Below, in pieces: positions 17,301 through 37,230 of a stretch of 37,230 bases of DNA. Made by a program: the position numbers and the translations under genes. The DNA comes from a virus. The DNA is taken from the IMG/VR virus record IMGVR_UViG_3300022198_001296, positions 1-37,230 of that record, one strand, 5' to 3'. The notes beneath the pieces are model-generated. The model had not been told where the DNA came from, made no database searches, and worked only from the letters and a program-made list of their open reading frames with translations. Position 1 is the stretch's first letter. The number at the start of each line of letters is the position of its first letter.

Positions 17301-17530
17301 TATCGCTCCTGCGTCTTGATGTGAAACCAGTTACCGCACCGCCTGACCACGTAGCCCCTGCCTATTGATGCAGCGGTGAATATGAGCGTGATAACCAGGT
17401 TGTCTGCAATGTTAAGCTCAAGCCCCCATAGAGGGACTATCACCAGTACCTGTATTGCCAGTGACACCAGAAAGCCGGACAGGGTATTGGCTGATGCCTC
17501 CAGTAAGCTGTGCAGTTTTGGTTGACTCAT
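17300..17530 (-). CDS. DUF7220-like membrane protein
   Basis: A 76-residue protein with two membrane helices separated by a short loop. The pattern E-x-x-x-NT-x-x-G (SANTLSGFLVSLAIQ), then VPLWGL and finally IFTAASIGRGYVVRR, matches the small membrane family DUF7220 found in many phages. The ATG overlaps the stop of the endonuclease gene (ATGA). Role unknown. Confidence 0.7.
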   Translation of the reverse strand: MSQPKLHSLLEASANTLSGFLVSLAIQVLVIVPLWGLELNIADNLVITLIFTAASIGRGYVVRRCGNWFHIKTQER

Positions 17531-18006
17531 AATGAGGCGCGGCCATGATTTGCATGAAACCCGTACTTCTTTTCTGCATCTTTCCTAGCCTGCAATGCCT
17601 CCGGCAAGGTATCGTAAGTTCCAAGGTGTATATGCTTGTCATCAACGCAAATCTGCGCCCTCCACCTTCTATCGCCAAACTTGTAAACACCTGTGTGCCC
17701 AGTTGTGTTGGTGCTGTGACGCTTAACGTTGCGCTCATTCTCTTTCTTGGAAACGCTCCGTAAATTGGTGATGCGATTGTCTGCCCTGTCTCCGTTCACA
17801 TGGTCTACATATTCAGGGTCTTCTCCATGAACCAATTTGTAAATTAGTCTATGCGTAAAGTATAAAACGCCATCAACTGTAGTTCTGTGGTATCCGTGCG
17901 AACAAGATCTTCCGCCAGCAGTCCTGCCTGTCTTTCTGTAAACTAGGTTTCCGTCATCATATACAAACAGATCGTTTAACCTTAACCTATACGGCAACTT
18001 AAGCAT
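17527..18006 (-). CDS. Free-standing HNH homing endonuclease with AP2 domain
   Basis: The 159-residue protein has an HNH core, VDHVNGDRADNRITNLR at about residues 67-83, with the preceding THRLIYKLVHGE helix. It is followed by an AP2-type DNA-binding domain (TGHTGVYKFGDRRWRAQI to the ALQARKDAEKKYG helix). This pairing is typical of mobile, site-specific nicking endonucleases. The gene is squeezed between a phosphoesterase gene and a membrane gene with 8- and 4-base overlaps, so it inserted without disturbing either. Likely a selfish element. Confidence 0.85.
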   Translation of the reverse strand: MLKLPYRLRLNDLFVYDDGNLVYRKTGRTAGGRSCSHGYHRTTVDGVLYFTHRLIYKLVHGEDPEYVDHVNGDRADNRITNLRSVSKKENERNVKRHSTNTTGHTGVYKFGDRRWRAQICVDDKHIHLGTYDTLPEALQARKDAEKKYGFHANHGRASL

Positions 18007-33701: not shown

Positions 33702-33770
33702 ATGGCTACAGCCACTTATCCTGGTGCGGGGGGTAATACCGCCAAGACAGAAGCAGCAACGTTCATTCCT
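33702..33770 (+). CDS. Major capsid protein, exon 1 (23 codons)
   Basis: AGGAG lies just before the ATG. The exon codes MATATYPGAGGNTAKTEAA and ends T-F-I-P. Without splicing it would stop three codons later at TAA. Joined to 34355 it gives the usual FIPEIWSDE sequence of this capsid family. The last bases, CATTCCT, pair with the intron guide sequence. Confidence 0.85.
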
Positions 33771-34354
33771 AACCTTTAATTTTTGGGAATGTAAAACCTT
33801 CTCTGAATAACTGGGACGGCTTAACAGGTCTACCAGAGGGAACACGACAGACTAACACACGCAGTTCGGAGGCAATCCATGAAGCGTATCAGTTGGAAGT
33901 ATTTAGCAGGATTGATTGACGGCGAGGGCTGCATAGACGTTCAGGTAACAAATGGCGTTTATGTAAAACCAAGACTGAGAATTGGAATGGCAGATAACGC
34001 TATCGCCCTTCTCGGGATGCTACAAAACTCGCTTGGTGGGCACATGGACCACCGTGAATCTAAGAACGAAAACTGGCAGAGCAGCACCTGCCTATCCTGG
34101 GATGGCTACAAAAGAGCCTGCCCAGTTCTTAGAAACATCGTCAAGCATCTTCTCCTGAAGAGGGAGCAAGCCAGGTTTTGTCTTTGGATGGAGACAAACA
34201 TCAAGGGGCAGCAGGTCAGCACAGAAGTGCGGGACGCTATCCGAGACGAGCTTAAGCTAATGAAGCGTGACCCGCACAGACTAAGTGAGAAGGCGCAGGA
34301 GAGGATTCTTTCTCTGCTGTGATGCTATAGTCGGACGCCCCGAGATGGGCGTTG
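33771..34354 (+). ncRNA. Group I intron in the major capsid gene
   Basis: A 584-nt intron. P1: exon bases CATTCCT (33764-33770) pair with GGGAATG (33785-33791), with the conserved U-G at the splice site. P10: ATTTT before the guide can pair with GAAAT of exon 2. P7: GACTA (33850-33854) pairs with TAGTC (34328-34332). P9: ACGCCC (34335-34340) and GGGCGT (34347-34352) form a hairpin, and the intron ends in G at 34354. The P-Q-R-S-like core (AACTGGGACGGCTTAACAGG, CAGACTA, GCTATAGTC) is in order. The endonuclease gene sits between the P7 strands, in the P3/P8 region. Confidence 0.85.
33879..34322 (+). CDS. LAGLIDADG homing endonuclease (intron-encoded)
   Basis: The 147-residue protein has one LAGLIDADG motif, LAGLIDGEG at residues 9-17, so it should work as a dimer. 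YVKPRLRIGMAD and LLKREQARFCLWME follow the usual fold. GGAGG lies 6 bases before the ATG. Its TGA stop ends just before the P7 3' strand of the intron. It should cut intronless capsid genes and help the intron move. Confidence 0.9.
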   Translation: MKRISWKYLAGLIDGEGCIDVQVTNGVYVKPRLRIGMADNAIALLGMLQNSLGGHMDHRESKNENWQSSTCLSWDGYKRACPVLRNIVKHLLLKREQARFCLWMETNIKGQQVSTEVRDAIRDELKLMKRDPHRLSEKAQERILSLL

Positions 34355-35269
34355 GAAATCTGGAGTGATGAAATCATCGCTGCGTATGAAAGATCACTAA
34401 AGGTTGCACCCCTTGTCAAGAAGATTTCAATGTCTGGCAAGAAGGGCGACAAACTGCATATTCCCAAGCCTACTCGTGGTGACGCGAACGCAAAGGCTGC
34501 GGATACGGCAGTAACGATCATTGCGAATACTGAGAGCGAACTGACTATCGACATTGATCGTCACTTTGAATACTCACGTTTGATCGAAGACATCGTTGAA
34601 GTACAGGCACTCAACAGCCTGCGACAGTTTTACACCTCCGATGCTGGTTACTCACTGGCAAAGCGTGTTGATACCGACCTCCACTCTTGTGGTACTGGTT
34701 TTGGTGACGGCGGCGCTGTTGTGTACTCTGATGCGGTTGCTGAAACTGACTACCAGCACACCGGTTGTTTCTTCAACGACAACGGTACGACCACTCAGTA
34801 CACGGACGACACCCAGGTAGCTTCTGACGTGTTCACGGATGCTTTCTTCCGCGACATGATCCAGAAGCTCGATGACAACGACGTGCCGATGGAAGATCGA
34901 CACCTGATCATCCCGCCTTCGGTTCGTAACGCCATCATGGGCATTGACCGCTACGTGTCTTCTGACTTCGTAAACGGTACTGGTGTCCAGAGCGGCCTGA
35001 TCGGTAATCTGTACGGCGTGGATGTGTATGTATCATCTAACTGTGCGACTATCGAAGCCGTTGGTGACAACACTGCTGCAACGGGTATTGCTACTCGAGC
35101 TGCATTGCTGTTCCACCGTGATGCGATTGTACTTGCTGAGCAGATGTCTGTCCGCTCACAAACTCAGTACAAGCAGGAATACCTCTCCAACCTGTACACG
35201 GCTGATTGCCTGTATGGTGTTGAAGTGTACCGTCCTGAAGCTGGATTTGTACTCGCAGTACCTGAGTAA
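34355..35269 (+). CDS. Major capsid protein, exon 2
   Basis: Codes EIWSDEIIAAYERSLKVAPL and the rest of a HK97/P22-type podovirus coat protein: NSLRQFYTSDAGYSLAKRVD, PPSVRNAIMGIDRYV, LIGNLYGVDVYVSSN and FHRDAIVLAEQM are typical of the family. With exon 1 the protein has 327 residues. The frame could be read alone from a TTG at 34352, but that lacks the N-terminus and a ribosome binding site. High Asp/Thr and regular codon use agree with high expression. Confidence 0.9.
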   Translation, partial: EIWSDEIIAAYERSLKVAPLVKKISMSGKKGDKLHIPKPTRGDANAKAADTAVTIIANTESELTIDIDRHFEYSRLIEDIVEVQALNSLRQFYTSDAGYSLAKRVDTDLHSCGTGFGDGGAVVYSDAVAETDYQHTGCFFNDNGTTTQYTDDTQVASDVFTDAFFRDMIQKLDDNDVPMEDRHLIIPPSVRNAIMGIDRYVSSDFVNGTGVQSGLIGNLYGVDVYVSSNCATIEAVGDNTAATGIATRAALLFHRDAIVLAEQMSVRSQTQYKQEYLSNLYTADCLYGVEVYRPEAGFVLAVPE

Positions 35270-35333: not shown

Positions 35334-37230
35334 TTGAGAACCGCCATAGTAAATTCTATCCGGCAAGGCATCCGCCAATCCATTCGGGGATCTGGTGAGC
35401 CTGTGCCCACGCTCGGACTACCGTTACAGAATTCTTTAGTATCCAACATTGCTAGCACCAGGGTAACCCCCACCTACACCCGCGCCACTACAGCCACAGT
35501 AGAGGACTACGAGGGCCGCATTATTGATGTGCCCTCTAACGCCGCCAGAATGCGTGGTGCGCGTTATGTGCAGAACCTGATTACTGCGTCTGAGGACATG
35601 ACTAATGCTGGTTTTATTGAGCAAAACGGTGGCTCGGTAACGGCGACAGAACTAACCACTGACGGGACTACTGATAGCGGTGTTTTTTGGACGCACACAA
35701 TAACTGATGATGGCTCTGGCGCTGGTGGCAGAACCTTTGTGTTTAGCGCGTCGATACGGCTGGTTAGCGGGACAATCAGCGCAAGCAGTTCACTGCAATT
35801 TAGGCTTCAGGGTAGCGCGGTTACACAGGCCACTGCCGGGATTGGATATGAGGTTTCGTCAACAGCAAAACGTTTTTCTGTGTCAGCATCCACCGATGCC
35901 TCTGGCACAACAGTAATTCCTAAAATTGATTGCGACGACGCAGTAACCCTAGAAATCACAAACTGGCAACTAGAAGAAGTCACAGGCCAGACGAACCAGA
36001 ACCCAGGCGAGTATGTTTCCACGGGTGTTGGGACTGGGGTGGAGCTTGTTACCAATGGTACGTTTGATAGCAATGTAGACAACTGGACAGACACGGGAGG
36101 CTCCCCGGCTACGTGGGTAGACGGAGCGATGAGCGTCCAGAAGCTGATTATGTTCAACAACGTCAAACAGGTTGGTTCTGACTTAAATGTTATAGGGAAG
36201 CAATACACCTTCTCTGTCGAGTTAATCTCTGGCAGCGTAAAAATGATCTTGTTTGCCGGAGCATCGACCGGGGGAACCAGATACGTTAATGAGGTTATCA
36301 ATACGCCCGGTGTTTACACGTGGACGTATACCGCCATCAGGACGAGTTACCTGATCTATTTTGAGAACAACAACGGATCGGGAGACTCCTACGTTGTTGA
36401 CAACATCTCAGTCAAAGAAGCAGACCACGGCCTCAACGTCGATGGCATCAAGGCCTTCACCACCCTCAACGGCAACACGGTATCTTCAGGCGTAGTCACA
36501 GAGGCCACTGGCCCGAGCATTGCACAGCAGCATGTGGAGCTGGATGGGGTATCGGGGACGTATGTATCGACCCCTGACAGTGCAGCGGCATCGGTTACGG
36601 GTGATATAACGCTGATTGCCAATGTTGCTCTTAACGACTGGACACCAAGCAGCGGCGAGGATGTTATTTCCAAGTGGCTCGGCACCGGAGATCAGCGCAG
36701 TTATTTGCTTCGAGTTATCAGCGGGAACCTGTATTTATTCACTTCATCTAGTGGCGCAGCAGGGACACAGGTCAGCAGCAACTCAACCGCAGCGGTCGGA
36801 TTTGCTGATGGGACGATGGGTTGGATTCGTGTCACTTGGGATGAATCTGCGGATACGGCTTACTTCTATACCTCTGACGACCCCATAGGCACACCTGTAG
36901 ATCAGGTCACATGGGTTCAGCTTGGCACATCTGTTAGTCATGTCTCATCCGGCATATTTGACGGCACCGCGAGCGTAAATGTCAGCGGTATCAACAACGG
37001 CGCAAGTTCAACTGTAAACGGCAAAATCTCCCGCGCCGTAGTCATAGCCTCGACAGACCCGACAGCCACGCCTGCTGTGGACTTTAACGCGAATGACTGG
37101 GAAGCCGGTAAGACCTGGGAATCCTCCACAGGTGAGGTATGGACACTCCAAGGCACCGCTAATGCCCGTGGGCCATTCTCTCGGTGGATTGAGCTTCCGG
37201 GGTCAAATGGTGATTACATTTCCACGCCAG
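35334..37230 (+). CDS. LamG/carbohydrate-binding tail fibre, 5' part (runs off window)
   Basis: The frame is open from a TTG at 35334 with AAGAGG 7 bases upstream to the last base. The N-terminus (RTAIVNSIRQGIRQSIRGSG) is probably the virion anchor. Then come a jelly-roll-like domain (IEQNGGSVTATELTTDG to ITNWQLEEVTGQ), an extra CBM-like domain (NGTFDSNVDNWTDTGG to VVDNISVKEAD, about 36040-36425) and a LamG module (VELDGVSGTYVSTPDSAAAS to GEVWTLQG). The stretch from about 35850 is a diverged copy of the fibre at 1-994, without the extra domain there. It is either the 5' half of that same gene in a circular genome or a second fibre. Confidence 0.8.
   Translation, partial: MRTAIVNSIRQGIRQSIRGSGEPVPTLGLPLQNSLVSNIASTRVTPTYTRATTATVEDYEGRIIDVPSNAARMRGARYVQNLITASEDMTNAGFIEQNGGSVTATELTTDGTTDSGVFWTHTITDDGSGAGGRTFVFSASIRLVSGTISASSSLQFRLQGSAVTQATAGIGYEVSSTAKRFSVSASTDASGTTVIPKIDCDDAVTLEITNWQLEEVTGQTNQNPGEYVSTGVGTGVELVTNGTFDSNVDNWTDTGGSPATWVDGAMSVQKLIMFNNVKQVGSDLNVIGKQYTFSVELISGSVKMILFAGASTGGTRYVNEVINTPGVYTWTYTAIRTSYLIYFENNNGSGDSYVVDNISVKEADHGLNVDGIKAFTTLNGNTVSSGVVTEATGPSIAQQHVELDGVSGTYVSTPDSAAASVTGDITLIANVALNDWTPSSGEDVISKWLGTGDQRSYLLRVISGNLYLFTSSSGAAGTQVSSNSTAAVGFADGTMGWIRVTWDESADTAYFYTSDDPIGTPVDQVTWVQLGTSVSHVSSGIFDGTASVNVSGINNGASSTVNGKISRAVVIASTDPTATPAVDFNANDWEAGKTWESSTGEVWTLQGTANARGPFSRWIELPGSNGDYISTP
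37027..37230 (+). repeat. 204-bp exact direct repeat, copy 2 (window end)
   Basis: Identical to 791-994 and in the same reading frame of a fibre gene. It ends exactly at the window edge, so the true length of the match is unknown. It is either the overlap of a circular assembly or a true second copy. Confidence 0.95.

Follow-up and report, generated by a model that had tools for sequence, protein, structure and literature searches.

A probable self-splicing group I intron with an I-CreI-like LAGLIDADG gene in the major capsid gene of a virus record, and its relatives at the same site

HNH and GIY-YIG enzymes are among the usual types of homing endonuclease found in phages (PMC3984707). A capsid-gene intron with an I-CreI-like LAGLIDADG gene has been described in the mycobacteriophage LittleE (Cluster J), and its splicing was demonstrated by RT-PCR and protein sequencing (PMC3706429), so that a LAGLIDADG capsid intron is a kind already known. 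The locus analysed here shares with LittleE a probable group I intron in the major capsid gene with an I-CreI-like LAGLIDADG gene inside, and differs in that LittleE has another insertion, of 819 bp, in a Cluster J capsid gene, with its ORF on the opposite strand. The introns of T4 td, nrdB and nrdD are likewise group I introns of a phage and carry homing endonuclease genes. They differ from the present one in residing in nucleotide-metabolism genes, in encoding GIY-YIG or HNH enzymes, and in their core subgroup (T4 nrdB is missed by the family core model R1 described below). I-CreI, I-CvuI and I-MsoI are intron-encoded and have the single-motif LAGLIDADG fold that is predicted for our enzyme, but they come from algal organellar introns and not from a phage capsid intron.

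The window, by which we mean the whole stretch of DNA that was analysed, is a virus record of 37,230 bases from IMG/VR. A 212-bp repeat, 99.5% identical, is found at 783-994 and 37019-37230, and the right end of the record repeats part of the left-hand lectin-like (Laminin_G_3) gene, so the record probably ends where the assembly broke within a repeated gene. The minus strand at 17530-18006 has a free-standing endonuclease gene of the HNH_3 type (plus weak AP2), probably a second homing gene of the genome.

The original prediction from this DNA, a major capsid gene interrupted by a group I intron with a LAGLIDADG gene, is borne out by the comparative evidence. The capsid ORF begins with ATG at 33702 and reads MATATYPGAGGNTAKTEAATFIP up to 33770; a frame that runs past this position meets TAA at 33777-33779, as had been noticed. 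Joining 33770 to 34355, where exon 2 opens with GAA ATC TGG AGT GAT GAA (EIWSDE), restores FIPEIWSDE and, in agreement with the prediction, yields a full-length capsid of 327 aa that matches intronless relatives. Such relatives had been suggested as a comparison: among the 80 closest capsid genes in public viral contigs (L001-L080), 79 have no insert at the FIP/EIWS site (the slash marks the insertion point), the sole exception being L002, which carries a different intron. In the intronless members of this set, exon 1 and exon 2 form a single unbroken match, except that in a few of the 80 contigs the first capsid residues fall outside the match. The joined junction was aligned across 56 loci, and the listed rows, of intronless relatives, have a DNA identity of ∼78-84%. 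Since the exons are contiguous in intronless relatives and the joined junction aligns, the junctions at 33770 and 34355 are right. The coordinates are collected in Table 1. That an endonuclease gene was misjoined into the capsid gene during assembly would be conceivable for an IMG/VR record that is probably a fragment, but we regard it as extremely improbable and in effect refuted, since an identical intron is present in a separate contig (L081) and 50 more contigs carry the insertion with consistent boundaries.

Table 1. Features of the capsid locus (window coordinates unless a contig is named) and of related insertions.
Feature	Position	Strand	Evidence or remark
Capsid exon 1 (MATATYPGAGGNTAKTEAATFIP)	33702..33770	+	continuous with exon 2 in intronless relatives
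Capsid exon 2	34355..35269	+	phrog_267 major head protein, 2.3e-48; Pfam Phage_capsid_2
Probable group I intron, 584 nt, site A (after Pro codon of FIP/EIWS)	33771..34354	+	P1/P10, final G, intronless relatives, core profiles
P1 5' strand CAUUCCU, in exon 1	33764..33770	+	pairs with IGS 33785-33791 GGGAAUG; U.G at splice site
Internal guide sequence (IGS; P1 3' strand) GGGAAUG	33785..33791	+
Probable P10 strand AUUUUU	33779..33784	+	pairs with GAAAU 34355-34359 (exon 2 start); sequence inspection
P3 5' strand CCUUCUC	33797..33803	+	pairs with GAGAAGG 34287-34293; covariation
P4 (33811-33814/33833-33836) and P5 hairpin between	33811..33836	+	P4 paired in 104/104 cells
P6 (GGG) and P6a (CACG) 5' strands	33838..33846	+	partners 34271-34273 and 34266-34269; covariation
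Decoy P7-like CAGACUA	33848..33854	+	not conserved in relatives
Shine-Dalgarno GGAGG of endonuclease gene	33868..33872	+	sequence
Gene in loop L6 for a predicted LAGLIDADG homing endonuclease of 147 aa	33879..34322	+	Pfam LAGLIDADG_1, E 3.7e-6
Dual-use stretch: last 18 codons and stop of ORF, serving as P6a', P6', P7 5', P3', P8	34266..34322	+	covariation
P7 5' strand CAGACUA, bulged A	34277..34283	+	pairs with 34328-34333
P3 3' strand GAGAAGG, inside endonuclease gene	34287..34293	+	covariation
P8 hairpin	34294..34321	+	hairpin present in all relatives folded
P7 3' strand UAGUCG	34328..34333	+
P9 hairpin	34334..34353	+	double changes in 5/5 pairs tested
Terminal G (omega-G)	34354	+	sequence
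Intronless capsid site, candidate endonuclease target	TTCATTCCTGAAATCTGGAGTGATGAA
Register A	after Pro codon		window intron
Register C	just before/inside TGG		L124, L086
Register B	after TGGT		L090-L101 in part, L100, L104, L105, L118, L121; also L002
Putative mini-intron	L329 3237-3291	+
Putative mini-intron	L325 4864-4922	-
Putative mini-intron	L327 4145-4200	-
Putative mini-intron	L247 ∼2895-2945	+

The core helices were placed by comparing the flanks of the 51 loci that carry relatives of the endonuclease. The group I core is hard to spot because the endonuclease gene splits it, and for this reason the minimum-energy fold of the whole insert (z -2.1) gave a wrong core and was discarded. 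A P3 formed by the Shine-Dalgarno GGAGG and CCUUC was likewise rejected, as it is displaced by the covarying GAGAAGG inside the ORF. P1 with its U-G pair, P9, P10 and the final G, all of which had been predicted, were found (33764-33770/33785-33791; G34354), with P10 read as AUUUU/GAAAU and the terminal G identified by sequence inspection. The predicted P7 is also real, its 5' strand being located inside the endonuclease gene (34277-34283); the upstream CAGACTA copy at 33848-33854 varies freely in relatives and was rejected as P7.

Covariation supports this fold. In an alignment of 18 sequences, 99.0% of the cells of the whole structure, with P7 treated as a pseudoknot, are paired, compared with 35-40% (about 37%) in slid controls in which partners were moved by 1-3 columns. 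Double changes are seen in 84 cells (mean of the shuffles, 24), and 0/500 shuffles were as good. Among 26 distinct core combinations, P3 is paired in 181/182 cells, 27 cells in 5/7 pairs show double changes, and 2000 re-deals of partners never exceeded 164 paired cells; both P3 and P6a lie above all 2000 shuffles. P6a is paired in 104/104 cells and occurs as CACG/CGUG, CUCG/CGAG, CCCG/CGGG and CCUU/AAGG, and P6 covaries as GGG/CCC, AGG/CCU and GAG/CUC. P7 has the G-binding G-C pair, and all six of its pairs form in all sequences, but its covariation says little because the helix is nearly invariant: C(A)GACUA/UAGUCG is found in all but L127, where the change is compensatory. For P1, the U.G is kept in 25/25 distinct site-A cores, and two other pairs covary between C-G and U-A and between A-U and G-C. 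The Pro codon ends in T (U in the RNA, CCU) in 40/40 intron alleles versus 9/77 intronless ones (Fisher p 6e-23, which overstates the significance as the rows are related). Profiles of the 5' and 3' parts of the core, both built without the window, found exactly 33762-33847 (E 2e-21) and 34264-34359 (E 1e-23).

These patterns bear on whether the insert is spliced at all. A 305-aa ORF opens at TTG 34352, and the capsid could be made from exon 2 alone, starting there or at an internal start, with the insert left unspliced. We consider this very unlikely, because exon 1 is conserved in relatives both with and without the intron, intron alleles invariably have U at the 5' splice site, and the ribozyme core is held by compensatory changes that a dead insert would not need. 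The preferred reading, in which we place high confidence on the comparative evidence, is that 33771-34354 represents a mobile self-splicing group I intron with an I-CreI-like homing enzyme. After transcription, the RNA would fold into P1-P9 with the ORF looped out of P6a; guanosine would attack after U33770, exon 1 would then attack after G34354, and the exons would join to give a normal capsid mRNA.

The Rfam family model RF00028 (Intron_gpI) has the helix order P1, P3, P4-P6, P7, P3', P8, P7', P9 in common with the window intron, and its consensus shares the P7 strands (AGACUA/AUAGUC). A search of the region with this model had been proposed as a check on the original prediction. It returned no match in the window at E ≤ 10, and the sensitivity of the model is poor here: T4 nrdB, a proven intron that served as control, scored 35.7 bits, below the cut-off of 50. 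The model gave no match to the ORF-less relative intron in L162 at E up to 1, and Rfam searches of the window and its relatives with gathering and E-value thresholds made no group I call for the window subfamily. RF00028 gave scores of 62-83 bits to other introns that lie within distant capsid genes or close to them. Since these are called by Rfam and the window subfamily is not, at least two subgroups of group I are represented among the capsid introns. We also used a family core model, R1, of 18 sequences with the window's own core included. R1 found the ORF-less introns of L162, L142/L244 and L234, which are outside its training set, with 63-92 bits, and, with that core among its sequences, also matched the 3' half of the window intron; it had zero matches in five intronless loci. 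T4 nrdB and the Rfam-type introns were not matched by R1, so that R1 alone gives no bridge to a known subgroup. The assignment to group I rests on helix order, P7 sequence and covariation, and not on Rfam.

The predicted structure of the endonuclease (AlphaFold, mean pLDDT 93.7) has the single-motif alpha-beta-beta-alpha-beta-beta-alpha fold. Its best solved neighbours by Foldseek are I-CvuI and I-CreI (E 5e-8, 16-26% identity), and a profile search agrees with this fold. In the motif LAGLIDGEG, D14, G15 and E16 are invariant in 29/29 relatives. The median dN/dS is 0.16 over codons 1-125, and synonymous change is low at codons 126-137, which encode P6a', P6', P7 and P3' (0.12 versus 0.49 elsewhere, p 5e-5). 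With dN/dS low and synonymous change suppressed, the protein is under selection as a protein and its tail also as RNA. The ORF is no separate passenger, its 3' end belonging to the ribozyme as well; overlap of homing-endonuclease ORFs with the intron core is known in general (PMC3984707). The best PHROG for the endonuclease, PHROG 5046, is labelled 'HNH endonuclease', which looks like a mislabel, the match here being a LAGLIDADG protein. The Shine-Dalgarno sequence is in the loop of a small hairpin (33862-33878 in the window; also in L089, L097, L100, L112 and L113), the stem of which changes in step (AAUAC/GUAUU, ACUAC/GUAGU, ACAUC/GAUGU). Perhaps this hairpin limits translation of the endonuclease.

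The LAGLIDADG gene would give a homodimeric I-CreI-like enzyme, whose most likely cutting site is the FIP/EIWS codons of intronless capsid genes, so that repair could copy the intron in. Enzymes of the I-CreI type cut a pseudo-palindromic intronless site of 20-24 bp; the pseudo-palindromic symmetry of the capsid site is weak and its signal unclear. It could be argued that the intron splices but has lost homing, the LAGLIDADG protein serving mainly as a maturase or its gene being retained solely on account of the ribozyme sequence at the 3' end: such proteins can assist splicing (reviewed in PMC3984707), and the 3' end of the ORF is constrained as RNA. This we judge to be unlikely, since codons 1-125, which are outside the core, are under purifying selection, the motif acids D14 and E16 are kept in 29/29 relatives, and the intron is scattered among relatives that are otherwise intronless.

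Relatives of the endonuclease were found in viral contigs at 51 loci, 51/51 directly upstream of capsid exon 2, and when the endonuclease alignment was searched against bacterial and archaeal genomes, none turned up. The prediction that a LAGLIDADG gene is an unusual partner for a phage intron thus holds among described phages but not in nature, where 51 viral loci carry the pairing. The closest relatives in isolate phages (31-34%) are in Gordonia phage Getalong, Mycobacterium phage DotProduct and others (H41-H60); these sit within or beside DNA methylase genes and are maybe the insertion elements described for the DNA methylase gene (PMC9957025, PMC11855218).

All 51 loci are inserted at FIP/EIWS in one of three staggered registers (A, B and C) within ∼10 nt, in capsids that are 98% down to 29% identical to that of the window. 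P1 is rebuilt in every register to match the exon sequence there (UUUGGU/GCCAAA at B). The intron of L002, in register B, has a two-motif enzyme. In L086 (3260-4900), a C intron and a B intron, both with P3 and P7, are separated by a 3-nt exon, GGT, and taking out both restores EIWSDE. As this is a single contig, the tandem arrangement may be a chimaera. Tandem group I introns are known from Twort orf142 and Coxiella 23S (PMC10136302); compared with these, L086 has an exon of 3 nt and the window a single intron. The P1 of the second L086 intron fits better once the first intron is removed. The capsid gene of L152 (8300-9850) has a window-type intron at site A and, ∼33 nt downstream, a second intron with a two-motif LAGLIDADG gene. 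An intron encoding a two-motif LAGLIDADG enzyme apparently splits the capsid gene of L187 (4500-6300) close to residue 97, at what would be a further insertion site. On these comparisons, the window intron belongs to a large family, almost undescribed so far, whose members have entered the same short stretch of phage capsid genes again and again, sometimes two or more together.

Twelve much shorter inserts, putative mini-introns of 34-57 nt, occur at capsid site A or B of relatives, none of them in the window, and introduce stops. Eight are in capsids of the FIPEIWSAKLVEKFYASTVLSAISNTDYEGE type (L162, L247, L249, L325, L327, L386, L244 at site B, and L234), two in related types (L330, L387) and two in WSDE-type capsids like that of the window (L329, L406). 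Other matches to the pattern, in L323, L333, L335, L338 and most others, were set aside as they are not in capsid genes. Every mini-insert has P1 with U.G, a P10 of 4-9 bp and a final G, and is without P3-P8. Each precedes another group I intron, ∼20-80 nt downstream, confirmed by Rfam beside L249, L325, L327 and L386 and by R1 beside L162, L244 and L234, the downstream 5' splice sites being positioned manually with the help of P1 and the intronless protein. The 3' part of the mini-insert, a putative tether, pairs with the exon: the 12 inserts, which are not entirely independent of one another, give a combined p of 3e-13, and the pairings of L162, L247 and L234 are not significant individually. 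This pairing stops 3-15 nt, mostly 8-9 nt, upstream of the 5' splice site of the next intron, and does so whether it begins 3 or 62 nt from the insert. In L327, the Rfam alignment takes the P1 of the mini-insert as that of the downstream core.

The full intron next to a mini-intron could supply the ribozyme core that splices it, with the tether binding the exon just before the next 5' splice site and serving as a P2 helix. We infer that a shared core with the tether as P2 is the simplest reading of the mini-inserts. Translational bypass was rejected by inspection, there being no matching take-off and landing codons. It is conceivable, at somewhat less than an even chance, that FIP/EIWS is a hot spot of staggered and serial group I introns, some of which have shrunk to core-less mini-introns spliced by the core of a neighbour. 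If real, these staggered, serial and core-less relatives would mean that ribozyme cores are shared between introns, of which, to our knowledge from a limited literature search, there is no report.

Our findings suggest that self-splicing introns in many environmental phages settle preferentially in a structural gene that is highly expressed. The endonuclease family is rarely described in phages and the introns are largely invisible to the standard intron model, and capsid genes split by such introns will be mis-annotated as truncated. The enzyme code overlapping the ribozyme core would offer a clean test of dual selection.
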